Origin: Halorubrum salipaludis
GTDB taxonomy: Archaea; Halobacteriota; Halobacteria; Halobacteriales; Haloferacaceae
DNA: 64,000 bases
Reading direction: 5' to 3'
Assembly: GCF_002286985.1 (NCBI RefSeq)
Contig: NZ_NSKC01000002.1
Location: 248,001-312,000 of the forward strand
Shown here: positions 7,900 to 24,273 of the stretch, piece after piece
Layout of the letters: every line of letters begins with the position of its first letter
Numbering within the stretch: position 1 is the first letter of the stretch
Translations under genes and position numbers: made by a program
The notes under the pieces: model-generated
The model's input: the letters and a program-made list of their open reading frames with translations, nothing else
Databases searched by the model: none
Told to the model about the DNA's origin: nothing

Positions 7900-10800
7900 C
7901 GCCGGGCACCTCCGTGGCACCGCGGGACGCGCGCTTCTCGATGTCGCCGTCGACCTCGAGGTTGCGGTCGCGAAGCTCCCCGACGACCTCCTCGTCGGCG
8001 TCCCAGAGCCCGCGGTCGACCGCCTCCAGGAGCGTGTCCGTGATCGATTCGAGCGCCCAGGGGTTGACGTCGCGCATCCAGTCGGCCCGGTCGTCGTCGA
8101 GGGCGTACTTCTCGGCGACGTCCCGCCAGAGGCGGTCGGAGACGACGCCGGTCGTCGCGTCCCAGCCGAGCGCCACGTCGACCGTCTTCGAGAGGTCGCC
8201 GGCGCCCTTGTAGCCGTGTTCCTCCATCGAGTCGAGCCAGTCCGGGTTGAGGACCCGCGCCCGCATCGCCTTTCGGACCTTCTCTTCGTTCGTGTAGACG
8301 TCGACGTTGTCGGGGTCCGAGGAGTCCCCGACGTACGACGCCGGCTCCTCGCCGGCCACCTCGGTGACGGCGGTGATGAACCCGCCGTGGAACGCGTACC
8401 AGTCCGAGGAGTCGAACTCGTCTTGCTCCATCGTGTCCTCGATCTTCACCGTGGCCTCGACGTTGCCGAGCCGGCGCTCGAACGCGTCGTGGGCCGCCGA
8501 GGCGGTGCCGCGGGAGCCGAGGGCGTAGCCGCCCCACTGGACGTACACGTCGGCGAGGTCGGCCGCGTCCTCCCAGTTCCCCTCGTCGACCGCCTTGTTC
8601 GTCCCCGCGCCGTAGCCGCCGGGCCGGGTCGTGAACACGCGGTGTTTCGCCGCCGCCTCGGGGTCGTCGTGCCCCCCGGCCGACAGCTCCTCGGTCTCCT
8701 CCTCGACGTGCTTTTTCACGTAGTTCATCTCGTGCGGCTCGTCGAGTTCGACCACCGCGTCGACGGCGTCGTGGATGACGCTCGCGGCCTGCGGGAACGC
8801 GTCTCTGAACAGCCCGGACACGCGGGTCGTGGCGTCGACGCGGGGCCGGCCGAGCTCGTCGAGCGGGATCGGCTCCACGTCGTCGATCCGCCCCGCGTCG
8901 GTCCAGACGGGCTCGACGCCCATCACCGCGAGCACCTGCGCGATCGTCTCGCCACGGGTCCGGACGGTCGGCGTCCCCCACGCGACGACGCCGATCTCCT
9001 CGGGGTACTCGCCCTCCTCTTCGCGGTGGCGGGCGAGCGTGTCCGCGGCGATCTCGCTGCCGACCTCCCACGCCGCCTTGGCGGGGACCTTCCGCGGGTC
9101 GAGCGTGTAGAAGTTCCGCCCGGTCGGGAGCAGGTCGACGCCGCCGCGGGTCGGCGCGCCGGAGCCGCCCGGCGGGACGTACTCGCCGGCGAGCGCGTCG
9201 GCCGTGCGCGGGATCTCCGCTTCGGCGCCGCGGACGCGGGGCGCGGCCTCTTCGGCGATGAACCGCAACGCCTCTCGGAGGTCGTCGTGGGCGCCCCCGC
9301 GAACCCGGGCGTCGCCGAGCGGATCGATGTCGACGATCAGCAGGTTGATCGTCGTCCCGTCGTCGGGGCCGGCGTCGGTCTCCGACTCGGGCACGTCGAA
9401 GCCGTGGTCGGCCAGCGTCCGGACGAGTTCCTTGCTCGTCTCGTACACCTCGTCGGCGGCCTCCCCGTACGTCATGCCCAGCGTCTCGTCGTACTCGCCC
9501 GGCGCGTCGAGCATCCGCTCGTAATCGACGCCGAGCACGCCGGCGACCGACTCGCGGAGGCTCGGCCCGCCCGGATTCTCCAGCCGGGTGAGCGCGACGA
9601 GGTACTCCACGAGCCGGTCGTCGACCGGCGGCTCGCCCATCGTGTGGAGCCCCAGCCGGATCTGGGTGTTCTTCACGTCGGTCAGGTAGGCGTGGATCCG
9701 CTCGACGAGCTCCTCGACGGGAACCTCGTCGCCGTCGACCTCGCCGTCCGCGAGCGTCGAGCCGGCCGCGTCCGGCCCGCGGACGTCGGCTCGCTCGTCG
9801 ACGTCGCCGGCGATCCCGAGTTCGACGGCGAGGTCGAGCTCGTCCACGCGCTCGCGGATGAGCTCTCCGAGGCGGGCGCCGTCGTCGGTGCGGACCTCGG
9901 TGCCGCCGGCCTCGCGGTAGCGGCGGGCGAGGTCCTCCAGCTCGGCCAGCTCGTCGTAGCTGCCGGCGCGACGCATGACCGGGGTTAGGTAGTCCACGAC
10001 GGCCGCGTACGAGCGGCGCTTCGCCTGCGTCCCCTCGCCGGGGTTGTTCACGATGTACGGGTACACGTTCGGCAGGTCGTCGATCAGGCCGTCCGGCGCC
10101 GATCCGGACCCGAGCCCGACCGTCTTTCCCGGCAGCCACTCCAGCGAGCCGTGCGTGCCGAGGTGGACCACGGCGTCGGCGGCGAACTCGTTGCGGAGCC
10201 ATCCGTAGAAGGCGACGTAGTCGTGCGGCGGCCACAGGTCGGAGTCGTGGTACACCTTCTCCGGATCCATCCCGAACCCGCGCGGGGGCTGGACGGTGAC
10301 GAGGACCTTCCCGAACTCGACGCCGGGGATCGCGAACGGCCGGTCGGGCGGCTCGCCCCACTCGTCGAGGACGCCGTCGCGGAACCGGTCGCTCCGCGCG
10401 TCGAACCACTCGGCGTACCGCGCGGACGACACGGTGTCGACGCTGCGGTCGCGCACGTCGCCCGGCGCGACCCACCGGTCGTCGAGGGTGAGCTGGCCGG
10501 TCAGGGCGTCGATGAGCTTCTCGCCGTCGACGACGGGAGCAGTTTTCGTCGCACCGCCGCCACCCCCCGAACCGAGGTCGTACCCGCGACTCGCGAGCTC
10601 GTCCAACAGGTTGACCGTCGATTCCGGGGAGTCGAGGCCGAACGCGGTCCCGATCCCGTCGTCGCTGGGCGGGTAGTTGTGTAACACGACGGCGACCTTC
10701 TTGTCGTCGTTCGGCGTGTGTCTGAGGTCGGCCCAGTTGACGGCGAGCCGCGCGGCGTGGTCGACGCGGTCCTCGATCGGGAAGTGCTGTTTCGGCGCGG

Positions 10801-11806
10801 AGCCGATTCCCGCGGCGTCTTCGGTCCGCTCTTTCCCCGAGACGGGGTGCGTGATCACGTTGCCGTCGAACTCCGGGAGCGCGACCGAGAGCGCGAGCTC
10901 GAAGCCCATCACGCCGGTGTCGCTCGACTCGTACCGGGAGCGCGACCGCATCGTCGTCACGGTCTGGATCACCGGGACGCCGAGCTCGTCGAGGAACACG
11001 CTCTCGGCGTCGGCGCCCTCGTCCGCCGCGTCGCGGCCGCGCTCGCTCATCGACAGCGAGAACATGAATGACGAGAGGACGGCGTCGACGACCGCGTCGC
11101 CGCGGTCGTCGGTGAAGTAGTTCTCCGCCGTCCACTTCGCGTCCTCCTGTCCGTCCTCGTCGCTGACGGGGTTACAGAACACGGGCAGCGCGTTCGCGCC
11201 GAGCGCCTCCAGCCGGCGGACCTGCGCGTCGATGTACCGGACGTTCTCGTGGGTCCAGTGCGACTCGTAGAACCAGACGCCGACGGTCGGCGCGTCGGGG
11301 TCGAACGTCGCGGTCAGTTCCTCAGCGTCCGTGCCGGGGTGGTCGGGGTGGTAGACGCCCTCCGTCGGGAGTTCGATCGGGTCGTCGATCTCGCCCGCGG
11401 CGTCGGTGGTCCCGTACTCCCGGGCAAGGAACCGAATCCCGTTCGCGATGTTGACCGCCCCGCCGTAGTCGAGGTACTCGGAAACCGTCGTTCGGTCGCC
11501 CGTCGCGACGGTGGTGTCTTCCAACGCGAACGCGTCGCCCGTCGCCTTCACGACGAGCGGGACGCCGGCGTCTCGGAGCTCCTCGACCGCGAACTCGTAC
11601 GCCGGCATGCTGTCCTGTCCGCCGTGGAGCCAGAGGACGACCGCGGCCGCGTCCCCGAGCTCGTCGACGAACGACGCCACGTCGCGCTGCTCGTCGAGGT
11701 CGCCGTCGGACCGGACCGCGAGGTCGATCCCGGTCAGCTGCTCCGCGGCCGTCTGGACCGCCCCCAACTCGTTCTCAGTCGCCGTGTAGAGGCCGATTTT
11801 TGTCAC
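7889..11806 (-). CDS. cobN: Cobaltochelatase large subunit CobN
   Basis: At 1305 residues this is the full length of the CobN/BchH/ChlH family, the large subunit of ATP-dependent chelatases that insert Co or Mg into the macrocycle. Recognisable stretches include FYESHWTHENVRYID, HNYPPSDDGIGTAFGLDSPES, LGTHGSLEWLPGKT and FHGGFITAVTE. The start is GTG at 11806, only 33 bases from the ATG of the divergent ChlI/ChlD-like ATPase that should be its motor subunit. In the anaerobic pathway CbiX inserts cobalt early, so CobN here may provide a second route or act in salvage. CobS and CobT are not present; the ChlD-like protein probably replaces them. Confidence 0.93.
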   Translation of the reverse strand: MTKIGLYTATENELGAVQTAAEQLTGIDLAVRSDGDLDEQRDVASFVDELGDAAAVVLWLHGGQDSMPAYEFAVEELRDAGVPLVVKATGDAFALEDTTVATGDRTTVSEYLDYGGAVNIANGIRFLAREYGTTDAAGEIDDPIELPTEGVYHPDHPGTDAEELTATFDPDAPTVGVWFYESHWTHENVRYIDAQVRRLEALGANALPVFCNPVSDEDGQEDAKWTAENYFTDDRGDAVVDAVLSSFMFSLSMSERGRDAADEGADAESVFLDELGVPVIQTVTTMRSRSRYESSDTGVMGFELALSVALPEFDGNVITHPVSGKERTEDAAGIGSAPKQHFPIEDRVDHAARLAVNWADLRHTPNDDKKVAVVLHNYPPSDDGIGTAFGLDSPESTVNLLDELASRGYDLGSGGGGGATKTAPVVDGEKLIDALTGQLTLDDRWVAPGDVRDRSVDTVSSARYAEWFDARSDRFRDGVLDEWGEPPDRPFAIPGVEFGKVLVTVQPPRGFGMDPEKVYHDSDLWPPHDYVAFYGWLRNEFAADAVVHLGTHGSLEWLPGKTVGLGSGSAPDGLIDDLPNVYPYIVNNPGEGTQAKRRSYAAVVDYLTPVMRRAGSYDELAELEDLARRYREAGGTEVRTDDGARLGELIRERVDELDLAVELGIAGDVDERADVRGPDAAGSTLADGEVDGDEVPVEELVERIHAYLTDVKNTQIRLGLHTMGEPPVDDRLVEYLVALTRLENPGGPSLRESVAGVLGVDYERMLDAPGEYDETLGMTYGEAADEVYETSKELVRTLADHGFDVPESETDAGPDDGTTINLLIVDIDPLGDARVRGGAHDDLREALRFIAEEAAPRVRGAEAEIPRTADALAGEYVPPGGSGAPTRGGVDLLPTGRNFYTLDPRKVPAKAAWEVGSEIAADTLARHREEEGEYPEEIGVVAWGTPTVRTRGETIAQVLAVMGVEPVWTDAGRIDDVEPIPLDELGRPRVDATTRVSGLFRDAFPQAASVIHDAVDAVVELDEPHEMNYVKKHVEEETEELSAGGHDDPEAAAKHRVFTTRPGGYGAGTNKAVDEGNWEDAADLADVYVQWGGYALGSRGTASAAHDAFERRLGNVEATVKIEDTMEQDEFDSSDWYAFHGGFITAVTEVAGEEPASYVGDSSDPDNVDVYTNEEKVRKAMRARVLNPDWLDSMEEHGYKGAGDLSKTVDVALGWDATTGVVSDRLWRDVAEKYALDDDRADWMRDVNPWALESITDTLLEAVDRGLWDADEEVVGELRDRNLEVDGDIEKRASRGATEVPGDDD

Positions 11807-11839
11807 AAGTTATTAAACCTCCTCTGCAATAACACAAGT
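11804..11839. promoter_or_regulatory. Divergent cobN / ChlD-like promoter
   Basis: Only 33 bases separate the GTG of cobN from the ATG of the ATPase gene. CACAAG occurs at each end as a direct repeat (11804-11809 and 11833-11838), and GTTATT / AATAAC form an inverted pair between them. The spacing means both transcripts are probably leaderless and share control. Confidence 0.5.
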
Positions 11840-14062
11840 ATGGTTGATTTGGGGACAAACAAAAAGGTTTCCACCCCCCTTCCGGCGGTCGTCGGCCAAG
11901 CGGATCTCAAACGGGTGCTTCTCGCGTTGGCGGTCGAACCGGGCCTCAGCGGCGCCCTCCTAAGCGGCGAAAAGGGGACCGCCAAATCGACGGCCGTCAG
12001 GGCGCTCGCGGACCTGTTGCCCGAACAGACGGTCGTCGCCGATTGCCCGTACGGCTGTCCGCCGCCGAACGAAACGGGACCCGCCGGGAACGCGACCGGA
12101 ACCGCCGCCGACCACTCCGACAGCGGTCGGTGCGCGTCGTGTCTCGGTCGCGAGGATCCGCCGGTTGAAACGAGACGAGCCCCGCTCGTGACGCTCCCGC
12201 TCGGTGCGACCCGCGACCGAGTGGTCGGGACGCTCTCCGTCGCCGACGCGCTCGACGGCGACGCCGAGTTCGACCCGGGGCTGCTCGCCCGCGCCAACCG
12301 GGGCGTCCTCTACGTCGACGAGGTCAACCTGCTTCCGGACCACCTGATCGACGTGCTGTTGGACGCCGCCGCGACGGGGACGAACCGGGTGGAGCGCGAC
12401 GGCGTCAGCGTCACGCACCCCGCCGACTTCACGCTGATCGGGACGATGAACCCGGAGGAGGGAGAGCTCCGACCCCAGCTGCGCGACCGCTTCGACCTCC
12501 GTGCCGAGGTCACCGGCAGCGACGAGATCGACGAGCGCGTCGAGATTCTGGACCGCGTCGTCGACGACGGCGGCGGCCGTGACCTCAGTGCGGAGTTCGC
12601 GTCGGAGACGGCCGCCCTCCGGGAGCGCGTTCACGAGGCCCGCGAGCGCTGCCCCGCGATCCCCGAGGAGTTCAAGCGCGACATCGCCGAGCTCTGCCGC
12701 GACGCGGACGTCGACGGCCACCGCGCCGATTTCGCCGTCGCTCGGGCCGCCCGGGCGTTCGCCGCGCTCGACGGACGTCCGAAGGTCGTCGAGTCGGACG
12801 TGGCGGACGCCGCCGAGTACGCGCTGAGCCACCGGGTACGGAGCCGCCCGTTCGAGGAGACGGTCGACCCGGAGGAGCTGGTGGACGACCACTTCGGCGA
12901 CGGCGCCGCCGAGGGCGACGGGGAACGGGAGAGCGACGGCGAATCGGAAGCCGACAGCGAACCGGAGGGCGACGGCGAACCGGAGGGCGACGGCGAATCG
13001 GAAGGCGACAGCGAACCGGAGGGCGAGACCGACCCGCGGGGAGCGGGCGACGAGACGGATAGCGGGGATTCCGGCGCGGACGGGAGCGACCCGGACGGGG
13101 GCGATCCGGATGGGGACGACCCGACCGGAACCGACCGCGATCGGTCCGGCGCTCCCGGTGCCTCCGGATCGCGAGGGTCCGACGGCAGCGAACGACCGGC
13201 GAGCGACGGGGCGACCGCCGACCGCGGCGACGAAGCGGACGGCGGCGGCGACGCCGACGGCGACGAGGAGGCCGCACCGATCCCCCTCGGCGGCGCTCGT
13301 GCGGGGGTCGCTGACGCAACGGCCCCGGCGGTTCCGTCGCCCGAGGACCGCGGTGACGCGGCGGGCGACTGCGGCGGCCGACACGCGGCGGCGCCGTCCC
13401 CGGACGGTCGCGGGCCGAGAGTGCGAGCGGAACACGCGGGGGAGTCGGCGTCCGTGGACCCGGCGGCGACCGTCCGGGCGGCCGCGCGGAGCGGCCGATC
13501 GCGACCGGCCGACACCGACCTTCGGCGGGCGGTTCGGGCCGACGACGCCCGCACGCTCACAGTGTTCGTCGCGGACGCCAGCGCGTCGATGGCCCCCGCG
13601 ATGCGCTCCGCGAAGGGCGTGGCGTTGGAACTGCTGCGCGACGCGTACGCCGAGCGGGACGAGGTCGCGCTGGTCTCGTTCGGCGGCGACGGGGCCGAGG
13701 TGCTGCTCCCGCCGACGACGAGCGTCTCGCTGGCCGCGCGTCAGCTGAAGGAGCTCCCGACGGCGGATCGGACGCCGCTCCCGGACGGACTCCGCAAGGC
13801 CGCGGCGCTCATCGAGCGGAAAGAGCCGGCCGCGGCGACCGTCGTGCTCGTCTCCGACGGCCGCGCGAACGTCGCGGAGGGCAGTCCGACGACCGCGACC
13901 CGGCAGGCGGCGAAACGGGTCGCGGAGACGGACGCGTCCGTCCTCGTCGTCGACGCGGGCGAGTCGAGGGCCGGCGTTCTGGACATCGTGTGCGAGACGA
14001 CGGACGCGAGACGGACCCCGATCGCCGCGCTCTCACCGGAATCGGTGCTCGGAGACCACTAG
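11840..14062 (+). CDS. ChlI/ChlD-like chelatase ATPase with VWA domain
   Basis: This 740-residue protein joins an AAA+ domain to a von Willebrand A domain, like magnesium chelatase D and I subunits and unlike CobS/CobT. Walker A GEKGTAKST is at about 43-51 and Walker B LYVDE at about 157-161. Cys69, 73, 98 and 101 lie in the insert between them. The VWA domain, from about residue 575, has the MIDAS motif DASAS. A very acidic linker of about 200 residues with Asp-Gly-Glu-Ser-Pro repeats joins the two. It is divergent from cobN, its likely partner, and upstream of cbtBA. I chose ATG 11840 because the frame further upstream is antisense to cobN. Confidence 0.9.
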   Translation: MVDLGTNKKVSTPLPAVVGQADLKRVLLALAVEPGLSGALLSGEKGTAKSTAVRALADLLPEQTVVADCPYGCPPPNETGPAGNATGTAADHSDSGRCASCLGREDPPVETRRAPLVTLPLGATRDRVVGTLSVADALDGDAEFDPGLLARANRGVLYVDEVNLLPDHLIDVLLDAAATGTNRVERDGVSVTHPADFTLIGTMNPEEGELRPQLRDRFDLRAEVTGSDEIDERVEILDRVVDDGGGRDLSAEFASETAALRERVHEARERCPAIPEEFKRDIAELCRDADVDGHRADFAVARAARAFAALDGRPKVVESDVADAAEYALSHRVRSRPFEETVDPEELVDDHFGDGAAEGDGERESDGESEADSEPEGDGEPEGDGESEGDSEPEGETDPRGAGDETDSGDSGADGSDPDGGDPDGDDPTGTDRDRSGAPGASGSRGSDGSERPASDGATADRGDEADGGGDADGDEEAAPIPLGGARAGVADATAPAVPSPEDRGDAAGDCGGRHAAAPSPDGRGPRVRAEHAGESASVDPAATVRAAARSGRSRPADTDLRRAVRADDARTLTVFVADASASMAPAMRSAKGVALELLRDAYAERDEVALVSFGGDGAEVLLPPTTSVSLAARQLKELPTADRTPLPDGLRKAAALIERKEPAAATVVLVSDGRANVAEGSPTTATRQAAKRVAETDASVLVVDAGESRAGVLDIVCETTDARRTPIAALSPESVLGDH
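12935..13030. repeat. Acidic-linker tandem repeat in the chelatase ATPase gene
   Basis: Imperfect 18-base copies close to GACGGCGAACCGGAGGGC encode repeating DGEPEG / DSEPEG / DGESEG units. They form part of the disordered linker between the AAA+ and VWA domains. Confidence 0.7.
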
Positions 14063-14118: not shown

Positions 14119-14307
14119 ATGTCGACGAACACCGACACCGTCGCCGACCGGTTCGCCGCGGCCGGGGCACAGATCGATCCATTGACCGCGCTCACCGCGC
14201 TGGCGCTCGCCGCGGCGCTGGGCTTCACGCTCCTGTTCCTACAGGAGCCGCTCGCCCACGACGCGTTACACGACTTCAGACACGGGGCCGGGATCATCTG
14301 CCACTGA
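14119..14307 (+). CDS. cbtB: Cobalt transporter subunit CbtB
   Basis: A 62-residue membrane protein with one predicted helix (LTALTALALAAALGFTLLFL) and a His-rich end (HDALHDFRHGAGIICH), as expected for the small subunit of CbtAB, a cobalt uptake system usually found beside B12 genes. The His-rich tail probably binds cobalt. An AT-rich 55-base gap with a TTACAAT element precedes it. Its TGA overlaps the cbtA ATG. Confidence 0.9.
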   Translation: MSTNTDTVADRFAAAGAQIDPLTALTALALAAALGFTLLFLQEPLAHDALHDFRHGAGIICH

Positions 14308-15029
14308 TGATCGATCGGCTCCGCTCCGGCGTCGCCGCCGGAGCGCTCGCCGGGCTGGCGTACGGGCTGTTCACGTGGGTGGTCGTCTCGCCGCTCATTC
14401 ACCACTTGGAGCACCTCGCGTCTCACGGCGGCGACCACGCGCACGACGCGGCGCCCGCCGTGAGCGAAACCGCGACGGCGGTCGTCAGCGCCGGCGGCGG
14501 CGTCCTGTGGGGCGTCCTGTTGGGGGCCGCCTTCGGCGTCGCGTATCACCTGTTCGAGCCGGCGCTCCCCGGCGGAACGCTGAAACCGTACGTCCTCGCG
14601 GGGGCCGGATTCCTGACGGTCTCGGTCGCCCCGTGGACGGTTCTCCCGCCGGCCACGCCCGGCATGGAACCGCTGTACGGGTCGTCGCTTCGCGTTCCGC
14701 TCTACCTCGGTCTGGTCGGTATCGGCGGGCTCGTCGCGGCGACGAGCGTCCTCGGGTACGCCCGCGCGAGCCGTACTCGCGGCCGCGGCACCGGGGCGTT
14801 CGTCGCGTTGCTTCCGCTGGTAGCGCTCGGGATCCTCTCGATCGCCGCTCCGCCGACGCTGACCGGCGGCGCCGCTCCGGCCGGGGTCTCGGCCGCGTTC
14901 CGGTGGCTCGTCGGCTTCTCGCAGGCGGGGCTCTGGGCGCTGATCGCCGTCGCCTTCTCGCGTTTCGACCGGCGCGTCGGTCGGCCTGACGCGAACTCAC
15001 CGACCCCGACCGCGAGGGGAATCGACTGA
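14307..15029 (+). CDS. cbtA: Cobalt transporter subunit CbtA
   Basis: A 240-residue membrane protein with five or six hydrophobic segments, beginning AGALAGLAYGLFTWVVVSPL, and a conserved periplasmic-side loop with HHLEHLASHGGDHAHD. This fits CbtA, partner of CbtB in cobalt uptake. It starts within the cbtB stop and ends within the start of the next gene, so translation is probably coupled. It belongs with the cobalt-insertion genes around it. Confidence 0.9.
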   Translation: MIDRLRSGVAAGALAGLAYGLFTWVVVSPLIHHLEHLASHGGDHAHDAAPAVSETATAVVSAGGGVLWGVLLGAAFGVAYHLFEPALPGGTLKPYVLAGAGFLTVSVAPWTVLPPATPGMEPLYGSSLRVPLYLGLVGIGGLVAATSVLGYARASRTRGRGTGAFVALLPLVALGILSIAAPPTLTGGAAPAGVSAAFRWLVGFSQAGLWALIAVAFSRFDRRVGRPDANSPTPTARGID

Positions 15030-15376
15030 TGGAGCGACGAACGGAACGGATGCGCGAGCGCGGCGTGAGCGCGACCGTCCTCGTCTGTACCAACGAACGG
15101 ACGGAGTACGCCGCCTGCGCCGCCGTCGACGGCGTCGACGTCGCCAACGCCGTCCGCGACTGGCTCCGCGAACGCGACCGCTACTGGTCGGAGGTCGCCG
15201 TCGCGGAGACGTCCTGTCTCGGGATGTGTAGCGAAGGCGGCGTCGCCGTCGTCGTCCACCCGCACGACGAGTGGTTCGCGGAGGTGACGGTGGACGACGT
15301 GCCGACGCTCATGACCGAGCTGTTCGGCGCCGCTACGGGCGACACCACCGCGGCGGAACCGACGACGACCGGCTGA
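15029..15376 (+). CDS. Thioredoxin-like 2Fe-2S ferredoxin
   Basis: A 115-residue cytosolic protein with four cysteines in the thioredoxin-like ferredoxin pattern: CTNERTEYAAC near residue 20 and SCLGMC near residue 62. A close relative forms the C-terminus of CbiX at 22656 (CTNQTC...SCFDQC). Co-translated with cbtBA, it may supply electrons to a cobalt reduction or corrin step. The GMC then EGGV ending also fits the family of ferredoxins found with cobalamin genes. Confidence 0.85.
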   Translation: MERRTERMRERGVSATVLVCTNERTEYAACAAVDGVDVANAVRDWLRERDRYWSEVAVAETSCLGMCSEGGVAVVVHPHDEWFAEVTVDDVPTLMTELFGAATGDTTAAEPTTTG

Positions 15377-15391: not shown

Positions 15392-16195
15392 CTAGAACGC
15401 GTCGGAGTCGAGGACCCGGTGCGGCACGTTCCTGTCCCGGAGCTTGGAGGTGTGACGGGGGATCTCGTCGGTCACCGCGACCAGCAGGACGTCGAGGCCG
15501 AGCGTGCCCGCCTCGGCGACGCCCTCCGCGGTCCCGAACCTGATGTCCGGGTCGACGCCGCTCCGAGAGACGAGCGCGTACGCCTCCGTCCCGGCGACCG
15601 CGACGAGTCCCTCGTCCGGGACGTGCGTCGAGACCACGCTCGGGTCCAGGCGGTCGTCGTCGGTGACGGTCGGGACGGGCAGCACGGAGACGGTTCCGGT
15701 GTCGTAGTCGACGACGCCCTCGAAGTCGGCGATGCCGACGGCCTCGCCCTCCGCCGCGCTCGTGACGGTGACCGCGGTCGCGGTCCCGCCGGCGGGGTTG
15801 GCGTGGAGGACGCCGTTCCGCATCACCAGCCCGACCTCTCTCCCCTCCGCCACGTCGTCGAGCGCGACGGCGGCGTCGACCTCGACGCTGCCGAGGACGT
15901 CGGAGTTCACCCGTTCGAGGTAGGTCTCGAGGTCGTCGGTCCGGGAGATGAGCCAGTCGACCCCCTCCTTGGTCACCTCGTACCGGCCGCGGCCGCCCTT
16001 CTCGACGTAGCCCGCCTCGACTAAGTCCCGGACGTAATCGCTGACCGCCTGCGAGGTCACGCCGATCGTGTCCGCGATCTCCCCCTGGCTCACGGCCGGC
16101 TGGCGGGCCGCGATCTCGACGAGCACCTGGTAGCGCGTCGCGCTCCGCTTGTTCTCGAGGACGTCCGGCGATCCGCCGTCCGCTGAGTCTCCCAT
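15392..16195 (-). CDS. Winged-helix transcriptional regulator, candidate for the cob cluster
   Basis: This 267-residue protein has an N-terminal winged helix (residues about 15-75, SQGEIADTIGVTSQAVSDYVRDLVEAGYVEKGGRGRYEVT) of MarR/TrmB type. The remaining 190 residues are an uncharacterised sensing domain (VLPVPTVTDDDRLDPSVV). Such archaeal regulators often bind a small metabolite. It lies between the cbt and cbiT transcription units and is divergent from cbiT, so I infer control of these genes, perhaps by cobalt or a corrinoid. The ATG at 16195 begins MGDSADGG; a longer start at 16216 is possible. Confidence 0.82.
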   Translation of the reverse strand: MGDSADGGSPDVLENKRSATRYQVLVEIAARQPAVSQGEIADTIGVTSQAVSDYVRDLVEAGYVEKGGRGRYEVTKEGVDWLISRTDDLETYLERVNSDVLGSVEVDAAVALDDVAEGREVGLVMRNGVLHANPAGGTATAVTVTSAAEGEAVGIADFEGVVDYDTGTVSVLPVPTVTDDDRLDPSVVSTHVPDEGLVAVAGTEAYALVSRSGVDPDIRFGTAEGVAEAGTLGLDVLLVAVTDEIPRHTSKLRDRNVPHRVLDSDAF

Positions 16196-16300
16196 TATCG
16201 GACGTTCAGATGCCACAGATAAAGTCTTGTTGTCTATTTCACGGCGTACTTGGCTAAGTACGGCTCACAGCGCCGCTTTTGTAAAGCAGACTTTTCTTAA

Positions 16301-16321
16301 CACAACCAAAATTGTTTTGTG
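16301..16321. promoter_or_regulatory. Palindromic operator candidate before cbiT
   Basis: CACAA-N11-TTGTG is a 21-base dyad centred on AAAATTG, 25-45 bases before the cbiT ATG. It contains ACAACCAAAATTGT, nearly the same as the palindrome at 5496-5509. The position covers the expected TATA/BRE region of cbiT, so a bound protein could block it. Confidence 0.55.
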
Positions 16322-16345: not shown

Positions 16346-16915
16346 ATGCAGGCGACAAAGCTTCCGAACGACGCGAAAGCGGGACCGACCAAGCCGGAGG
16401 TCCGTGCGGTGTTGGCGCGAAAGCTCGCGCTCGGTCCCGACGACCACTTCGTCGAGGTCGGCTCCTGTACGGGCGCGGTAACGATCGAGGCCGCTCGCCG
16501 CGCGGGGCGGGTGACGGCGCTCGAACGGAACGCGGACCGGCTCGAGACCACTCGAGCGAACCTCGCCGCGAACGAGTACGAGGCCGACGTGCGCCTCGTC
16601 AACGCCGAGGCCCCGGAGGGGCTTCCGGACGACGGTGACGTGGTCTTCCTCGGCGGATCGCGGAACTACGAGCGGGTTCTCGACGCCGCCGTCGACGCCG
16701 GCTACGATCGGATCGTCATGAACGTGTCTCGTCTCGAGGTCGCGGGAGAGGCGGCTCGGGCCTTCCGCGACCGCGACCTCCTCGACGAGGCGCTGTGCCT
16801 CCAGATGGCGACCGGCTATGACCTCGCGGGCGCGACGAGCTTCGACGCCGACAACCCCGTGTACATGCTGGTCGGCGAGCCGGGATCGGCCGGGAAACCG
16901 GGTGAGGACGAATGA
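16346..16915 (+). CDS. cbiT: Cobalt-precorrin-6B C15-methyltransferase CbiT
   Basis: A 189-residue SAM-dependent Rossmann methylase that methylates C15 and decarboxylates the C12 acetate. Seen are the substrate loop TKPEVRAVLARKLAL, motif I VEVGSCTGAVTIEAA, an acidic strand end (ALERN), and FLGGSRNYERVLDAA. ATG 16346 was chosen because the fold begins right after MQATKLPNDAKAGPTKPEV; the in-frame ATG 27 bases earlier adds only unlikely residues. It is the first gene of the long plus-strand operon through 24273. Confidence 0.92.
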   Translation: MQATKLPNDAKAGPTKPEVRAVLARKLALGPDDHFVEVGSCTGAVTIEAARRAGRVTALERNADRLETTRANLAANEYEADVRLVNAEAPEGLPDDGDVVFLGGSRNYERVLDAAVDAGYDRIVMNVSRLEVAGEAARAFRDRDLLDEALCLQMATGYDLAGATSFDADNPVYMLVGEPGSAGKPGEDE

Positions 16916-16943
16916 CGCGGGAACTCCGGACCGGAGGCCGCGA

Positions 16944-17687
16944 ATGACCCTGTACGGCGTGGGACTCGGTCCCGGCGATCCCGACCTGATCTCCGTCCGC
17001 GGCCGGGAGATCCTCGACGGCGTCGATGTCGTGTACTCTCCGGGTCGGCTCTCGCGGGCGGTCGCGACCGAACACGTCCCGGAGAGCCGGATCGGCGACC
17101 TCGATTTCCCGATGACGAGCGACGAGGAGCGGCTCCGCGAGGCGTGGAAGCAGGCCGCGGCCGAGATCGCCCCCGAAGCGCGGGCGGGCGACGCCGCGTT
17201 CGTCACGCTCGGCGACCCGAACGTGTACTCCACGTTCGGACACCTCAGACGGACGCTCGACGCGTTCCACCCCGACGTCGACGTGGAGATCGTGCCCGGG
17301 ATCAGCGCGATGACGGCGTTCGCGACCGCGCTCGACGTCGAGATCGAGGCCGGCGCCGGGCTCGCGCTCCGCGAGGCCGCCGGCGGACGCGCGCCCACCG
17401 GCCCCGACAGGATGGTCCTGTTCAAGGTGACCGACGCCCCCGAGACGGCCCGCAAGCTCCGCGAGGCGGACTACGACGTGCGGTTCGGGCGCCGGCTCTT
17501 CATGGAGGCCGGCGAGACGACCGTCACCGAAGACGCGGACGCGCTCGCGGACCGGGACTACTACACGCTCGCGTACGCGGAGCGCCGCGGCCTCGAGACC
17601 TCGAGGGCGACCGACGAGTTCGCGGTCGACGCGGACGCGAAGGGTCGCGCCTCGGCGACCGCCGACGCGGAGGCCGGCGATGACTGA
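16944..17687 (+). CDS. cbiL: Cobalt-factor II C20-methyltransferase CbiL
   Basis: A 247-residue tetrapyrrole methylase with YGVGLGPGDPDLISVRG at the N-terminus, the GDP loop in TLGDPNVYSTFGHL, and IVPGISAMTAFA. These are the CbiL pattern: Co-factor II is methylated at C20 to give Co-factor III. The ATG at 16944 follows CGGAGG closely and sits 28 bases after the cbiT stop. Its 3' end overlaps cbiF. Confidence 0.9.
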   Translation: MTLYGVGLGPGDPDLISVRGREILDGVDVVYSPGRLSRAVATEHVPESRIGDLDFPMTSDEERLREAWKQAAAEIAPEARAGDAAFVTLGDPNVYSTFGHLRRTLDAFHPDVDVEIVPGISAMTAFATALDVEIEAGAGLALREAAGGRAPTGPDRMVLFKVTDAPETARKLREADYDVRFGRRLFMEAGETTVTEDADALADRDYYTLAYAERRGLETSRATDEFAVDADAKGRASATADAEAGDD

Positions 17688-18621
17688 CGGTCCGACCGAC
17701 TCGCAGGCGGGCATCGACGCCGTCGGCGACCGGACGGGGGGCGAGCTCGACCCGCGGGTCCGCGAGCACACCGCCGGCGAGGAGCAGGAGGGGATCCCGT
17801 TCATCGGTGCCGGTCCGGGCGATCCCGGGCTCCTCACCGTGCGCGGCAAAGAGCTGGTCGACGACGCCGACCTCGTCGTCCACGCCGGGTCGCTGGTCTC
17901 CAGCGCGCTCTTAGAGGAGCACTGCGCGGACGCGGAGCTGGTGAACTCGGTGGGGAAGGACCTCGAGGAGCTGGTCCCGCTGATGCGGGACGCCCACGAG
18001 AGCGGGCGCACCGTCGTCAGACTCCACAGCGGCGACCCCGCGGTGTACGGGGCCGCCCTCGAACAGATCGACGCGCTGGAACGCGAGGGCGTTCCGGCGT
18101 ACGTCGTCCCCGGCGTCACGTCGTCGTTCGCGGCGGCGGCGACGCTGCGCACCCAGCTCACGCTGAACGGCGTCGCGAACCACGTCGCGTTCACGCGTCC
18201 GCGGGGGAAGACGCTCGACGCCGAGGACGACCACGTCGCCGAGTTCGTCGAGATGGGCGACGTGACGACCTGCATCTACCTCGGCACCCACGCGGTGAGC
18301 GACACGATGGACCGCCTGCTCGACCGGGACGGGGTGGACCCCGACACGCCGGTCGCGGTCGTCTACCACGCCTCGTGGGACGACGAGGACGTGATCACGG
18401 GAACGATCGCCGACATCGGCGAGAAGGTGGAGGCGGCCGGCTACCGCGCGTCCGCGATGGTCCTCATCGGCGAGGCCGCGACGGGCGCGGGGTACGACCG
18501 CTCGTACCTCTACGGCGACTGGGCGAACGGCGGAACGGCGGACGCGGACAACGGCGAAACGATGGACGCGGCGGACGCGGCCAGCGACACGGAGACGACC
18601 GAAACGGAGGCGGACGACTGA
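17680..18621 (+). CDS. cbiF: Cobalt-precorrin-4 C11-methyltransferase CbiF
   Basis: A 313-residue SAM methylase of the CbiF/CobM group, with FIGAGPGDPGLLTVRGKELV, RLHSGDPAVYGAALEQ, VVPGVTSSFAAAATL and YHASWDDEDVITGTIADI. It methylates C11 of cobalt-precorrin-4. It carries an acidic N-terminal extension of about 40 residues and an acidic C-terminal tail of about 30, both common haloarchaeal additions. It starts inside cbiL and its stop overlaps the cbiG start (TGATG). Confidence 0.93.
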   Translation: MTDGPTDSQAGIDAVGDRTGGELDPRVREHTAGEEQEGIPFIGAGPGDPGLLTVRGKELVDDADLVVHAGSLVSSALLEEHCADAELVNSVGKDLEELVPLMRDAHESGRTVVRLHSGDPAVYGAALEQIDALEREGVPAYVVPGVTSSFAAAATLRTQLTLNGVANHVAFTRPRGKTLDAEDDHVAEFVEMGDVTTCIYLGTHAVSDTMDRLLDRDGVDPDTPVAVVYHASWDDEDVITGTIADIGEKVEAAGYRASAMVLIGEAATGAGYDRSYLYGDWANGGTADADNGETMDAADAASDTETTETEADD

Positions 18622-19631
18622 TGAGCACCGACAGCAACGACGGGAACGCGAGTGGCACCGACGCGGCCGACGCGACCGACGACTCCGGCGGCGGCCACTG
18701 TTCGACGGCGGACTCCGACGGCGAGGTGGCGGAGGAGATCGCGGTCGTCAGCTTCGAGCGGAAGCTCGACACCGCCGCGGAGATCGTTGACGGGATCGGC
18801 GACCGCTACGAGTCGATCGACGTGATCGAGTACCACGGCGACGTGTTCGCCGAGCATTGGGGCGAGTACGACTGCTTCGTCGGGCTGATGGCGTCCGGAA
18901 TCGCCATGCGGAAGACCGCGCCGCTGCTCGACGACAAGTGGGACGACCCCGCGATCGTCGTGGTCGACGAGGCGCTCACGTGGGCGATCCCGATCACCGG
19001 AGGCCACCACGGTGCCAATCAGGTGGCGGACGACCTCGCGAGCCTGGGCGCCGTGCCCGCGATGACTACCGCCTCGGAGGCGGCGGACAAACAGGGCGTC
19101 GAGAAGCGGGCGAAGGCGCTGTCCGCACACGTCGTCAACGGCGACTCCACGGTCGCGACGAACCTCGCCGTCCTCGACGACGAGCTCGGCCCCGTCGAAC
19201 GGCTCGACGGGCCGCGGGCGGTGCTGGTCGACGACGACGTGACGGTCCTCAAGCGCAACCGCGACGACGGGATCGTGCTCGGCACGGGCTCCGTCTCCGG
19301 CGCGGACGAGGAGCGGTTCATCGAGGCCTGGGACCGTGCGCTCGCGGCGGTCGACCGCGACTGGGACGACGTCGAGTTCGTCGCCACCGCGACGCGAAAG
19401 GCCGACGAGGAGGGTCTCCTCGCCGCGGCCGCCGCGCGCGATCTCGGGGTCGTCGCGTTCGACAGGGAGACCCTGCTCGAGTTCGAGGGGCCGACGCCGT
19501 CGAAGGCGAAGGAACTCATCGGCTGGCCGGGCGTCGCCGAGGCGAGCGCGATCGCCGGCGGGGCCGACCACGATCTCGTCGCGGAGAAGACCAGCCACGA
19601 GAACGAAGTGACCGTCGCGGTGGGGCGATGA
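18621..19631 (+). CDS. cbiG: Cobalt-precorrin-5A hydrolase CbiG
   Basis: A 336-residue enzyme that opens the ring lactone and removes the two-carbon fragment as acetaldehyde. The CbiG core is recognised in [32 protein letters not shown], then [16 protein letters not shown] in the N-terminal part, and a C-terminal domain with [29 protein letters not shown] and [18 protein letters not shown]. The first 40 residues are acidic and low-complexity. Confidence 0.93.
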
Positions 19632-20581
19632 CCGGGACCGGCTCGGCGCCCGGCGGCGCGGACGACGCCCCCGACGGGATGGGAACGCTGTACGTCGTCG
19701 GCATCGGCCCCGGCCTCCCGCACGCCATGACCCAGCGGGCCCGCGACGTGATACGCCACGCCGACTGCGTCATCGCGTCGAACCTCTACCAGGAGTTCCT
19801 CCGTCAGGACGGCACGATTCCCCCCGAGTCGCGGACCGAGGACGCCGCCACGGACGGCGGAGCCGCGGTCGGCTCGGCCGACGGTGGTGCCGGCGACGAC
19901 GCCGGCTGGGCGTCCGGCAACGTCGGCACCCATCCCGACGGCGAGACCGTCGAGGTCGTTCGATCCTCGATGGGGCAGCAGATCGAGCTCGCCCGCGAGG
20001 CGTTCGAGCGCGTCAGGGCGGGACAGGACGTGGCGCACGTCTCCGGCGGCGATCCCAACGTGTACGGGAAGTCCGACCTGGTGTACCTGATGGCCGACGA
20101 GGACGACGCCGACGACGTCCCGATCGAGATCGTGCCCGGCGTGACGGCCGCGCTCGGCGGCGCCGCGATGGTCGGCGCGCCGCTCTCGAACGACTTCTGT
20201 ACGGTCTCGCTGTCCGATAAGTGGCGCGGCTGGGAAGAGATCGCGGAGAAGCTCCGCGCCGCGGCGGTGTCGGGGTTCACGATCGTCCTCTACAACTGCT
20301 GGCGCGACTACGAGCGCGCCATCGAGGTGCTCCGGGAGCACCGCACCGACGACGCCCCGGTCGCGATCGTCAACGACGCCGACCGCGGCGAGGCCGGCCG
20401 CAACCTCGACGACGAGACCTACACCCTGACGACGCTCGGAGCGGCGACCGACCACGACGACGAGGTCGGCGGGATGGGAACCTCCCTGATCGTCGGCACG
20501 CACGAGACCGAGGTCTGGGAGAACGACTACGACCGATTCCTCGTCACGCCCCGCGGCGGGCGAGACGTCGACGACTTCTGA
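19628..20581 (+). CDS. cbiH: Cobalt-factor III C17-methyltransferase CbiH, copy 1
   Basis: A 317-residue tetrapyrrole methylase with YVVGIGPGLPHAMTQRARDV, HVSGGDPNVYGKSDLV, IVPGVTAALGGAAM, and LSDKWRGWEEIAEKLRAAA. This matches CbiH, which methylates C17 and contracts the ring. An insert of about 40 residues rich in Gly, Ala and Asp (around residues 65-105) breaks the usual fold. It is followed directly by a second CbiH-like gene, so one copy may have a different specificity. Confidence 0.9.
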   Translation: MTGTGSAPGGADDAPDGMGTLYVVGIGPGLPHAMTQRARDVIRHADCVIASNLYQEFLRQDGTIPPESRTEDAATDGGAAVGSADGGAGDDAGWASGNVGTHPDGETVEVVRSSMGQQIELAREAFERVRAGQDVAHVSGGDPNVYGKSDLVYLMADEDDADDVPIEIVPGVTAALGGAAMVGAPLSNDFCTVSLSDKWRGWEEIAEKLRAAAVSGFTIVLYNCWRDYERAIEVLREHRTDDAPVAIVNDADRGEAGRNLDDETYTLTTLGAATDHDDEVGGMGTSLIVGTHETEVWENDYDRFLVTPRGGRDVDDF

Positions 20582-20583
20582 CA

Positions 20584-21660
20584 ATGAGTGACACAACCTG
20601 CGGAGCGACGGACGACCCGAACTCGAACAGCGACGGAAGCGACACCGAGACGGCGACTGACGGTGGGTGCGGTGCGGAGACGGCGACGGATAGCGGATGC
20701 GGCGCGGAGACGGACACTGGTGCGGCGACGGAGACGGCGACTGACGGCGGGGCCGCGACGGAGACTGGGAGCGGCTCGTCGTCCGCGTGCGGGGCGAGCG
20801 ACGCGTCGAGCTCCTCGTCGTGCGGCGGCTCGAAGTCGGCGACGACCGACGAGAAGGTCGGTTCGACCGCCGACGACTTTGACGCCGACCCCGGTCGGCT
20901 CGTCGCGGTCGGACTGGGGCCGGGGCAGCCGGAGGGGATGACCGGCCGCGCTCGGGCGGCATTGCTGGAGGCGGACCACATCGTCGGGTACACGACGTAC
21001 ATCGACCTTGTACCCGACGAGATCACCGACGCGGCCGACGAGCTGTACGACACGCCGATGTGCGGCGAGGTGTCTCGGACGGAGGAGGCGGTCGACCGCG
21101 CGCTCGCGGGCAACGACGTCGCCATCGTCGGCTCCGGGGATCCGAACGTGTACGCGCTCGGGGGGCTCGCGCTCGAGATCGTCGAGTCGAAGGGGGCGAC
21201 GGCGTCCGCGCTCGACTTCGAGGTCGTCCCCGGCGTCCCGGCCGCGCAGTCGTGTGCGGCCCGCGTGGGCGCGCCGCTCGTCAACGACTCGGTGTCGATC
21301 TCGCTGTCGGACCACCTCACGCCGATGGACGAGATCGAATCGCGGCTCCGCGCGGTCGCGGCCGAGGGCTTCACGGTCGCGATCTACAACCCGTGGAGCC
21401 GGAAGCGGCGCGAGAACTTCGAGCGGGCCTGCGAGATTCTCACGGAACACCGGCCGGCGGACACGCCGGTCGGGGTCGTCCACGGGGCCGGACGCGACGA
21501 CGAGCGCGTCGAGATCGTCGAGCTGGGCGAGTTGGAATCGCTCGGCGAGACGGACCTGATCGACATGACGACGACGCTGCTCGTCGGCAACGAGGAGACG
21601 TACGTCTGGGACGGCCGGATGATCACCCCGCGCGGCTACGAGAGCAAGTATGACTACTGA
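20584..21660 (+). CDS. cbiH: Cobalt-factor III C17-methyltransferase CbiH, copy 2, with Cys-rich N-terminus
   Basis: A 358-residue paralogue of the gene before it, with AVGLGPGQPEGMTGRARAALL, SGDPNVYALGGLALEI, VVPGVPAAQSCAARVGAPL and LSDHLTPMDEIESRLRAVA. The methylase begins near residue 103. The N-terminus is an unusual stretch rich in Thr, Ala, Gly, Ser and Glu with six cysteines, largely as GCGAETATD-like repeats, then SSSACGAS and SSSSCGGS. It could bind metal or an Fe-S cluster. Spaced 2 bases from copy 1. Confidence 0.9.
   Translation: MSDTTCGATDDPNSNSDGSDTETATDGGCGAETATDSGCGAETDTGAATETATDGGAATETGSGSSSACGASDASSSSSCGGSKSATTDEKVGSTADDFDADPGRLVAVGLGPGQPEGMTGRARAALLEADHIVGYTTYIDLVPDEITDAADELYDTPMCGEVSRTEEAVDRALAGNDVAIVGSGDPNVYALGGLALEIVESKGATASALDFEVVPGVPAAQSCAARVGAPLVNDSVSISLSDHLTPMDEIESRLRAVAAEGFTVAIYNPWSRKRRENFERACEILTEHRPADTPVGVVHGAGRDDERVEIVELGELESLGETDLIDMTTTLLVGNEETYVWDGRMITPRGYESKYDY
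20640..20860. repeat. Cys-rich repeat at the start of cbiH copy 2
   Basis: Imperfect units close to GGTGCGGTGCGGAGACGG encode GCGAETATD and related peptides, followed by Ser-rich Cys segments. Divergent copies suggest slippage followed by drift. Confidence 0.6.
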
Positions 21661-21949
21661 GACCGCGGCCGACGAGACGACGGACGCCGCCGAGCCCACG
21701 TACCGCGTCTCCGTGGACCTGACCGCCTGTGACGGCGTCTTCGCCTGTCTCGTCCGCGACGACCGGTTCGTCGAGGCCGACGAGGGGCTGGTCGGGTTCG
21801 ACCGGGCCGACGCGGTCGCGCCGATCGAACGCGCCGCAGACGAGGTCGCGGCCACGTTCTCCGACGGGCGTCTCGACGAGGCGCGCTCCGCCGCGGCGGC
21901 CTGTCCGCTGGACGCGATCACCGTCGAGGAGCGGGAGGGCGACGCGTGA
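21650..21949 (+). CDS. Ferredoxin-like protein with incomplete cluster motif
   Basis: A 99-residue acidic protein with ACDGVFAC near residue 28 and AACPLDAI near 86. A 4Fe-4S ferredoxin has CXXCXXC and a distant CP; here the middle Cys is replaced by Val (CXXVXXC). Such sites can hold a 3Fe-4S or a 4Fe-4S cluster with another ligand. It overlaps cbiH copy 2 by 11 bases and the next gene at its stop. Redox supply to a corrin-ring step is the natural inference. Confidence 0.8.
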   Translation: MTTETAADETTDAAEPTYRVSVDLTACDGVFACLVRDDRFVEADEGLVGFDRADAVAPIERAADEVAATFSDGRLDEARSAAAACPLDAITVEEREGDA

Positions 21950-22659
21950 GCGCTCCCGACTCGACGCCGGACGACCTGCTCGCTCGACACCCGGAGACAG
22001 CCTACTTCTGGGGTCACGTCGCGGGCGGCGGCCGGGTGACCGACCGGAGCGTCGAGGTGACCGTCACCGACGAGGACGCGGCGCGGCGCCTGTCCGCGAT
22101 CGCCGGCGGGGGCACCGTCGACCACCGGATCGCCGAACGCGAGTTCGCGCACGACACGTCGGTGACCCGGCAGTCGGACGAGTACACGGTGCAGATCGTC
22201 GATCCGACGCTGGCCGCGAACGCCGCCGCGGCGTTCGGTCTGCCCGTGGGGTCGGACCCCGGCGGCTACCGGTTCGACGCGTTCCGTGCCCACCGACGGG
22301 CGCTGCTCCGAGGGCTGTTCGAGGCGTGCGGCGTCGTCTGCTTCCGCGAGTCGAGCGCCGCCGTCGGCGTCTCGTTCGTCCACGACGACGCCCGGCTGCT
22401 GGCGCGGATCCGAACGGCGCTCGACGCGGAGGGGTTCGACGCCGAGGAACCGCAGCCGTCGGCGTCGGGTGGCCACTGGTTCGGCGTCGCCGACCCCGAC
22501 ACGGCCGCCTTCGGCGAGTGGGTGTACGAGGGGGCCGACGAATCCGGGCTGTACGCGGCCGACCGCCGACGCAAGACGCTTCGGAGCGTCGAACGGGCCA
22601 CGGGGGTCGCGGTCGGAAGCCTCATTGGGCCCCGTGAAACGGAGGAGGCGAAGCCGTGA
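21946..22659 (+). CDS. Degenerate LAGLIDADG-fold protein in cobalamin operon
   Basis: A 237-residue protein of no known role. Two repeats can be read. The first runs from YFWGHVAGGGRVTD and the second from RALLRGLFEACGVVCF; both match the helix, glycine turn and following strands of LAGLIDADG homing endonucleases (compare LLGLLEGDGS and FLRGLFDADGSV). A basic LYAADRRRKTL end is also typical. The catalytic acidic residues are gone (AGGG and EACG). So it looks domesticated and non-cutting, perhaps nucleic-acid binding like WhiA. It overlaps both neighbours (GTGA starts) inside the operon. I give no function. Confidence 0.75.
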   Translation: MSAPDSTPDDLLARHPETAYFWGHVAGGGRVTDRSVEVTVTDEDAARRLSAIAGGGTVDHRIAEREFAHDTSVTRQSDEYTVQIVDPTLAANAAAAFGLPVGSDPGGYRFDAFRAHRRALLRGLFEACGVVCFRESSAAVGVSFVHDDARLLARIRTALDAEGFDAEEPQPSASGGHWFGVADPDTAAFGEWVYEGADESGLYAADRRRKTLRSVERATGVAVGSLIGPRETEEAKP

Positions 22660-23873
22660 GCCGAGCGGCGGACGCCGTCGGGATCGGCGACGACGAGACG
22701 GCGCTCCTCGTCGGGCACGGCTCTCGCCGCGAGCAGTCGAACGAGGCGGTCCGAACGCTCGCGGCCGGGCTGGAGGACCGACTCGGCGTCCCGACCGACG
22801 CCGCGTTCCTCGAACTGGCGGAGCCGTCGATCCCCGACGCGATCGAGACGCTCGCGCACGGCGCGGCGCGGGTCACGTTGGTGCCGCTCTCGCTGTTCGC
22901 GGCCAGCCACGTCAAAAACGATCTGCCGCTCGCGGTGAAGCGCGCCCGAAGCGAGCACCCCGGCGTCAGGTTCCACGCCGGCGGACACCTCGGCATCCAC
23001 CCCGCGATACTCGACCTCCTCGACGACCGGGCGCGGGCCGTGGAGACGGAGTTGGGCGTCGACCGCGAGGACGACGACGTCGCCGTCGTCCTCTGTGCCC
23101 GCGGCTCCTCGGACCCGGACTCGAACGCGGACGTGCACAAGCTCGCCAGACTGCTGTACGAGGGACGATCGTTCGACCGGGTCGAAGCCGGGTTCATCGG
23201 CGTCACCGAGCCGCTCCTCGACGACGCGCTGCACGACGTCGCGAAGACGCGACCGGACGCGATCGTCGTGTTACCGTACATGCTCGGCGACGGCGTCCTG
23301 ACCGGGCGGATACGGGACGGGGCCGACGAGTTCGACGCGGAGTACCCGTACGTCGACGCCGCGGCCGGCGACCCGCTCGGGACCGACACCCGGCTGTTGG
23401 ACGTCCTCTCGGACCGGTGGCAGGAAGCGCGCACCGACTCGGTCGACATGTCGTGTGACACGTGTAAGTACAAGGTCGAACTCGACGGCTACGAGGAAGA
23501 CGAGGGCGGCGCGCGGGCGATGCTCCGCGCGCTGACCCACCAGCGGGCACACGAGGACCGAGACGACGTCGCCGACGAACCGCACGCCCACGACGCGCCG
23601 GAGACGCACCTCGCCGTCTGTACGAACCAGACCTGCGCGGCGAGCGGCTCTCCGGCCGTCCTGGAAACCCTGCGGCAGGCCGCCCGGGACGCGGACGCCG
23701 ACGTTCACGTCACCCGGTCGTCGTGCTTCGACCAGTGCGGCGACGGCCCGATCGTCGCGCAGTACCCCGACGGCGTCTGGTACGGGGGCTGCGGCGACGG
23801 GGACGCGGATCGGATCGTCTCCGCCGTCGAGCGGGACCGAATCGTCAGCGACCTCGTTCACCAAACGCTGTGA
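22656..23873 (+). CDS. cbiX: Sirohydrochlorin cobaltochelatase CbiX with ferredoxin domain
   Basis: A 405-residue protein of long CbiX type. It inserts cobalt into sirohydrochlorin, the first committed step. Two chelatase repeats: the first has LLVGHGSR (His21) and PLSLFAASHVKND (His85); the second starts VVLCARGSS. The C-terminal 110 residues are a thioredoxin-like 2Fe-2S domain (CTNQTC and SCFDQC), and CDTC sits in the linker with a His-rich HQRAHEDRDD-type segment. GTG start at 22656 overlaps the previous stop. Confidence 0.92.
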   Translation: MSRAADAVGIGDDETALLVGHGSRREQSNEAVRTLAAGLEDRLGVPTDAAFLELAEPSIPDAIETLAHGAARVTLVPLSLFAASHVKNDLPLAVKRARSEHPGVRFHAGGHLGIHPAILDLLDDRARAVETELGVDREDDDVAVVLCARGSSDPDSNADVHKLARLLYEGRSFDRVEAGFIGVTEPLLDDALHDVAKTRPDAIVVLPYMLGDGVLTGRIRDGADEFDAEYPYVDAAAGDPLGTDTRLLDVLSDRWQEARTDSVDMSCDTCKYKVELDGYEEDEGGARAMLRALTHQRAHEDRDDVADEPHAHDAPETHLAVCTNQTCAASGSPAVLETLRQAARDADADVHVTRSSCFDQCGDGPIVAQYPDGVWYGGCGDGDADRIVSAVERDRIVSDLVHQTL

Positions 23874-23895
23874 GACGCACCTACCACGATACACA

Positions 23896-24273
23896 ATGAG
23901 CTGTGATGAGATCGAAGCCCTACGACTCGGCCTGATGAACACGCTCGGAACCGCGGACGACGCGGTCCGACGCCACGCGGAACAGGAGCTCGGCGACGCC
24001 CTTGACGGCGACACGCCGATCGCCGCCCTCGCGGCGGCGGAGTCCGTGACCGAGCTCCGACGGCACCTCGACGCCGCGCTCGTCGATTTGGAGGAGGAAG
24101 TCGCCGCCCTCGACGCGGACGACCCGGAGTACGGGTACGCTCGCGGGCGGCTCGTGGCGGTCCGGGACGCCGAGCGATCGCTGGCCCGGTTCGCCGACGT
24201 CGGCGAGTCGTTCCTCGACGACCTCGGCGACGCACACCACACGCTACACGAGGTGTTCCCGGTCGAGGAGTGA
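23896..24273 (+). CDS. DUF3209-like protein
   Basis: A 125-residue acidic, mostly helical protein, 22 bases after cbiX, beginning MSCDEIEALRLGLMNTLGT. It matches my memory of the DUF3209 family, which is known chiefly from archaea and sits beside cobalamin genes. No catalytic motif is visible; the only Cys is at position 3. It may be a small accessory subunit of CbiX. It is the last gene of the operon. Confidence 0.78.
   Translation: MSCDEIEALRLGLMNTLGTADDAVRRHAEQELGDALDGDTPIAALAAAESVTELRRHLDAALVDLEEEVAALDADDPEYGYARGRLVAVRDAERSLARFADVGESFLDDLGDAHHTLHEVFPVEE

Follow-up and report, generated by a model that had tools for sequence, protein, structure and literature searches.

The bacterial cobalamin (adenosylcobalamin) riboswitch has as its targets the cbi/cob genes, the genes for B12 and cobalt uptake and those for B12-independent ribonucleotide reductase (RNR), and PocR, CarH/LitR and AerR are bacterial protein regulators linked to B12. 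The archaeal vitamin regulators of the RbkR/ThiR type consist of a helix-turn-helix (HTH) fused to a C-terminal sensor that is homologous to riboflavin kinase or ThiN. MarR family repressors are small winged-helix dimers whose ligand pocket lies between the domains; they are encoded divergently from the regulated operon and bind a palindromic site over its promoter. In Halobacterium salinarum, cob/cbi are controlled by TrmB and an unknown second regulator, which was modelled as an activator and for which VNG0156C, VNG1899G and VNG1179C were named as candidates; little evidence for riboswitches was found in Halobacterium (Todor et al. 2013, PMC3794607). Haloferax cobalamin-cluster genes without assignment have been listed, and in that part of the paper the regulator described here is not among them (Pfeiffer 2021, PMC8305020). 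The literature searched contained no archaeal B12 transcription regulator, no mention of DUF7839 and no naming of this protein as a B12 regulator.

The gene in question, here called REG, lies in a window of 64,000 nucleotides (the whole stretch of DNA analysed) from Halorubrum salipaludis, contig NZ_NSKC01000002.1, where it is surrounded by a complete cobalamin cluster (Table 1). The gene map agrees with the original prediction, in which REG is divergent from cbiT (16346, + strand) and has the cbt unit (cbtB-cbtA-small protein, 14119-15376, + strand) on one side and the cbiT unit on the other. The cbiX gene of the cbiT unit (22656-23873, 405 aa) contains two CbiX stretches, an apparent tandem duplication, and a tRNA gene (24699-24773, - strand) flanks the cluster. 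A search of positions 3000-28000 with the Rfam covariance model of the cobalamin riboswitch (RF00174) gave no match, even at E 5, and riboswitch control of the cluster was rejected on this basis.

Table 1. Features of the REG locus and of the surrounding cobalamin cluster (window coordinates)
Feature	Position	Strand	Remarks
CbiX-like (PRK02395-type) protein	5514..6263	+	249 aa; ATG re-read at 5514 (automatic gene call, 5808), abutting operator O3
Tetrapyrrole methylase (cbiE-like)	6326..7108	-	PF00590
cbiC	7105..7899	-	PF02570
cobN	7889..11806	-	PF02514
chlID-type cobaltochelatase subunit	12221..14062	+	True start upstream of 12221
cbtB and cbtA (cobalt uptake)	14119..15029	+	PF09489, PF09490
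Small protein of cbt unit	15050..15376	+	No Pfam match; probably [2Fe-2S] thioredoxin-like
REG	15392..16195	-	267 aa; MarR-type winged helix, small beta barrel and DUF7839
Winged-helix DNA-binding part	15926..16150	-	Residues about 16-90; MarR_2 over cut-off, invariant residues
Small beta-barrel subdomain	15710..15883	-	Residues about 105-162; AlphaFold2 model of C-terminal part
DUF7839 domain (PF25211)	15413..15709	-	Residues 163-261; putative sensor
His248 codon	15452..15454	-	Conserved in 62/64 clade-B proteins; Val in clade A
cbiT-cbiL-cbiF-cbiG-cbiH-cbiH2-ferredoxin-unknown-cbiX-DUF3209 unit	16346..24273	+	Divergent from REG
Candidate operator O1	16298..16319		cbiT promoter; 26 bp before cbiT ATG, 102 bp before REG ATG
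Candidate operator O2	11830..11851		cobN/chlID divergent region; 2 mismatches; 23 bp before cobN start
Candidate operator O3	5492..5513		2 mismatches; directly 5' of CbiX-like gene ATG

By domain profile and predicted fold, REG is a MarR-type winged-helix regulator. Residues 20-66 match the Pfam model MarR_2 (9e-10, 39.0 bits against a cut-off of 27), the predicted winged helix aligns with MarR/PadR structures at a VIA-align Z of about 12-13, and the recognition helix reads VTSQAVSDY. The C-terminal domain matches PF25211 (2.7e-29, 101.8 bits against a gathering score of 27), a family which Pfam describes as 'function unknown' and which occurs in 155 of the 197 genomes sampled from the phylum. 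The earlier description of a winged-helix protein with an uncharacterised C-terminal domain is thus borne out, MarR_2 and DUF7839 both lying over the Pfam cut-offs. The frame is intact in other species with identities of up to 95%, close relatives being those of Halorubrum, and homologues are annotated in public records merely as 'MarR family transcriptional regulator'. Membership of the NikR, DtxR or ArsR families was rejected since the family profiles were not over cut-off: the metalloregulator models matched the HTH alone, below cut-off, with 18.9 bits for the ArsR-type NF033788 (cut-off 55) and weak HTH matches only for the DtxR-type models. None of the domains recognised in the Pfam search of REG is a corrinoid/B12-binding domain.

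REG shares with the MarR family the winged helix, the divergent position and the palindromic site over the promoter, but a beta barrel and DUF7839 follow its winged helix, and its architecture is not that of a small dimer with the ligand pocket between domains. Like the RbkR/ThiR-type regulators, REG fuses an HTH to a putative C-terminal sensor and is tied to a candidate vitamin regulon, and RbkR (3cta, 5trd) is among its sequence and fold matches, through the HTH; in DUF7839, however, the likeness to an enzyme family, the tetrapyrrole methylases, is one of predicted fold, and profile comparison found no homology in sequence. The candidate regulon is similar in its target set to bacterial cobalamin riboswitch regulons, although it would be served by a protein and a DNA operator, with no Rfam match in the cluster. 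PocR, CarH/LitR and AerR are protein regulators tied to B12, as proposed for REG, but their domains are unrelated to those of REG, in which no B12-binding domain was detected.

A strictly conserved block in the REG-cbiT intergenic regions, compared across genera, gave the consensus of a candidate operator, the 22-bp palindrome TAA-N-ACAA-N6-TTGT-N-TTA. The palindrome at 16301-16321 that had been pointed out beside REG is real, and the 22-mer 16298-16319 (O1, TAACACAACCAAAATTGTTTTG) describes it best; this 22-mer has one mismatch to the consensus built from other genera. When up to three mismatches were allowed, three sites were found in the window against 0.01 expected from shuffles. The sites are restricted to cbiT, cobN/chlID and the CbiX-like gene, so that every recognised transcription unit of the cluster has one; O1 is homologous to the sites from which the consensus was built, and O2 and O3 are independent of them. 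The palindrome (at most two mismatches) was present upstream of REG in 32 of 32 cbiT-linked loci and ended 24-26 bp 5' of the cbiT ATG in 31, the exception probably reflecting a misread start codon. Its information content across these loci was 1.78 bits per column, compared with 0.46 and 0.78 in the flanks. Since many haloarchaeal transcripts are leaderless, the TATA/BRE elements are expected at this very distance from the cbiT start. Some cbiT promoters (e.g. L072, L077 and L102) also carry a conserved AGTTGT, which follows the main half-site at about 21 bp, and weak palindrome copies are present at about 20 bp in the opposite direction and across the REG promoter; this pattern suggests tandem sites two helical turns apart. 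The inverted repeat 16212-16233/16302-16323 was considered as an operator pair and rejected, as its left arm overlaps the likely REG BRE/TATA and is a weak site at best.

Of 243 genomes of the order, 108 contain the palindrome with at most one mismatch; the reversed pattern, taken as control, occurs in 25 of them. About 35 of the 42 best-match loci adjoin B12 or RNR genes, compared with 1 of 25 control loci (Fisher 6e-11, kinship between genomes not corrected for), and the sole positive control locus is a cbiT operator in shifted register. The genes at these roughly 35 loci are cbiT, cobN-type cluster genes, a CbiX-like gene or class I nrdA, or else nrdR together with nrdA/nrdB; allowing up to two mismatches brings in cbiH, cbiM and a further BtuF-like gene. 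NrdA, NrdR, CbiM and PduO were over their NCBIfam cut-offs; the BtuF-like protein was over the cut-off for TIGR04281 and under that for BtuF. NrdA at the palindrome-linked loci belongs to class I, the class of RNR that needs no B12. In the genome of H. salipaludis itself, a site with three mismatches precedes the gene of a BtuF-like PGF-CTERM protein; the total count at this threshold was not above control (24 vs 28), so the evidence from this genome lies in the position of the site, not in the number of sites. Its weak matches in C12:565-569 kb (a glycan region of 42% GC), C21 and C22 were taken as chance. Genomes without CbiG carry sites before the BtuF-like gene (G020) or nrdA (G005, G014, G018 and G054), and in G005 a site also precedes REG itself, downstream of PduO. 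The operator is common to genes of B12 synthesis, B12 uptake and B12-independent isozymes, and REG is its putative reader.

Among 80 loci from the genome collection, the divergent REG/cbiT pair recurs in Halobacterium, Halorientalis, Halogeometricum, Salinibaculum, Halococcus, Halopenitus, Halosimplex, Haloarcula, Halorussus, Haladaptatus and others; in two Halobacterium genomes (L072 and L096), REG is divergent from cbiT with the palindrome present. At REG loci without adjoining cbi, the neighbours include cbiA (L061, L057), a cobT-like gene with cbiA and cobA (L083), cobA (L075, L097, L107), nrdA (L076), a PduO adenosyltransferase gene (L198) and, by weak similarity, nrdB (L224, L278). Genes unconnected with B12 also occur as neighbours, among them those for EamA, glycerate kinase and malic enzyme. 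REG was found in 46 of 46 near-complete relatives and CbiG in 18 of 46. The palindrome lies upstream of REG copies without cbiT at L034, L078, L080, L198 and L224, and palindromes beside REG are often decayed where cbi has been lost. In Halorubrum species with no cbi beside REG (L036, L037 and L039), a decayed operator has kept its spacing to REG, as though the site served cbiT.

In a quick tree of 89 proteins, with SH-aLRT as the only measure of support, all B12- or RNR-linked cases fell into clade B (66 rows, SH-aLRT 99), and the members of its sister, clade A (14 rows, SH-aLRT 99), lay mostly beside the archaeosortase gene artA and/or a metallophosphoesterase gene. Most genomes have either clade A or clade B, both occurring in two of those examined, and the recognition helix VTSQAVS[DE]Y is common to the two clades. 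Several lineages with clade A alone (G053 and 12 relatives, G045, G055, G040 and G043) keep palindromes at cbiT and cobN, some of them weaker, and in G044, which also keeps them, the REG homologue is basal. The 13 G053-type genomes, all of one genus, have up to four strong palindromes in the cbi cluster and, as their only homologue, a clade-A gene beside a metallophosphoesterase gene. No palindrome was found at clade-A REG loci, so in these lineages the site would be read either by another factor or by a clade-A protein in trans. This is the main difficulty for REG as the reader. The common recognition helix argues for clade A, which we favour as the reader of the cbi-cluster operators in trans. 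Inspection by eye and blast against a limited set revealed no gene for a regulator within the G318 cbi cluster.

Clade-A regulators divergent from artA and metallophosphoesterase genes occur in several haloarchaeal families (L267, L268, L270, L271, L274, L283 and L284), and we know of no function for this pairing. Methanogen homologues, which are about 33-40% identical to REG, have no B12 neighbours and lie beside HypF, helicase or phosphoesterase genes, and no palindrome was found in their REG loci. For most of the methanogen DUF7839 regulators (L138-L147, L150, L156 and L157), the preceding gene is another conserved, small and regulator-like one, and HypF, a helicase or a phosphoesterase is encoded nearby. 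The family is therefore wider than the haloarchaeal B12 regulator originally envisaged.

Since the winged helix filled the Foldseek and VIA results for the whole protein, the C-terminal part was modelled alone by AlphaFold2 (pLDDT 92.9). In this predicted model, the fold of DUF7839 resembles the N-terminal domain of tetrapyrrole methylases: the best Foldseek match was 3hh1_B (E 2.8e-3, TM 0.42), and VIA-align gave 3hh1_C (Z 9.0, 93 residues, rmsd 2.9), followed by CysG, SUMT, NirE and CbiL (Z about 8-9). REG gave no Pfam match to PF00590, and hhalign of DUF7839 with the methylases of the window gave probabilities of about 2% or less; sequence homology to these enzymes was rejected on these grounds. 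Given that the resemblance is one of predicted fold, with no detectable sequence homology, it is a lead rather than a family membership. His248 might, as a guess, contact the ligand; were the two clades to sense one and the same molecule, the Val found at this position in clade A would be surprising. No conserved Cys/His cluster was found in the REG family. The original prediction had named B12 and cobalt together; sites before class I RNR and BtuF-like genes in genomes without CbiG, which lack de novo synthesis, and the retention of REG after loss of the cbi genes favour a corrinoid rather than cobalt as the signal.

The case for REG as the best candidate for a B12 repressor is strengthened by its conserved divergent arrangement with cbiT, by the operator and the regulon, and by the phylogeny. 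We consider it probable that REG is a winged-helix factor that acts on the palindrome and represses B12 genes upon corrinoid sufficiency. REG, presumably as a dimer, would bind TAA-N-ACAA-N6-TTGT-N-TTA and keep TBP/TFB away from the promoter, a mode of repression inferred from the location of the site over the expected TATA/BRE. DUF7839 would most likely sense a corrinoid or a late corrin intermediate. With enough B12, corrin synthesis (the cbiT unit, cobN and the CbiX-like gene), cobalt uptake (cbtBA through chlID, and cbiM elsewhere), B12 uptake (the BtuF-like protein) and, in species having it, the B12-independent class I RNR would be switched off. A more far-reaching version, which is conceivable although we hold it with considerable doubt, is that DUF7839 is a corrinoid sensor with the fold of a corrin-pathway methylase, placed on a winged helix as the archaeal protein counterpart of the cobalamin riboswitch across Halobacteria, controlling B12 synthesis, uptake and B12-independent RNR, with clades A (in trans) and B (in the cbi cluster) replacing each other on the same operators.

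That the palindrome is read throughout haloarchaea by another transcription factor, REG being a mere neighbour of cbiT or having a different target, appears unlikely but is a serious rival. Such a factor would account for the palindromes kept at cbiT and cobN where the sole homologue is a clade-A gene at an unrelated locus, and for the clade-A loci without palindrome, but it leaves aside the palindromes upstream of REG copies without cbiT, the nearly universal single-copy presence of REG, the mutual replacement of the clades in all but two genomes and their common recognition helix; nor was a rival regulator gene recognised in the G318 cluster by the limited search described above. At the other extreme, a local housekeeping regulator that has no B12 role and lies beside cbiT by chance is very improbable: the neighbours of clade A and of the methanogen homologues would suit it, whereas the statistics of the operator and the B12 genes that recur beside members of one clade speak against it.

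REG could also read the operator as proposed and respond differently. Sensing of cobalt or another metal, in the manner of NikR or DtxR-type regulators, is equally as unlikely as an unrelated reader; the cobalt transport genes in the regulon (cbtBA by operon, cbiM directly) and the conserved, clade-specific His248 speak for it, but the sites that stand at BtuF-like and class I RNR genes where CbiG is absent fit B12 sufficiency better, a conserved Cys/His cluster was not found, and the metalloregulator profiles extend to the HTH alone, below cut-off. Activation of the cbi genes by REG, as the second regulator of the H. salinarum feed-forward model, seems less likely still, if not quite as improbable as the housekeeping role. 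The second regulator was indeed taken to be activating (Todor et al. 2013, PMC3794607), but release of a repressor can yield the same expression curve, and the position of the palindrome before the cbiT start fits occlusion.

Judged from its genomic context, REG is very likely to be the B12 gene switch that was missing in haloarchaea, which appear to lack a bacterial-type RNA switch. For haloarchaeal B12 control, the analysis puts forward a specific protein as candidate, together with a 22-bp site, a list of targets and a residue that may contact the ligand, so that the proposed switch is testable in genetically tractable haloarchaea. If true, it would provide the first function for DUF7839.
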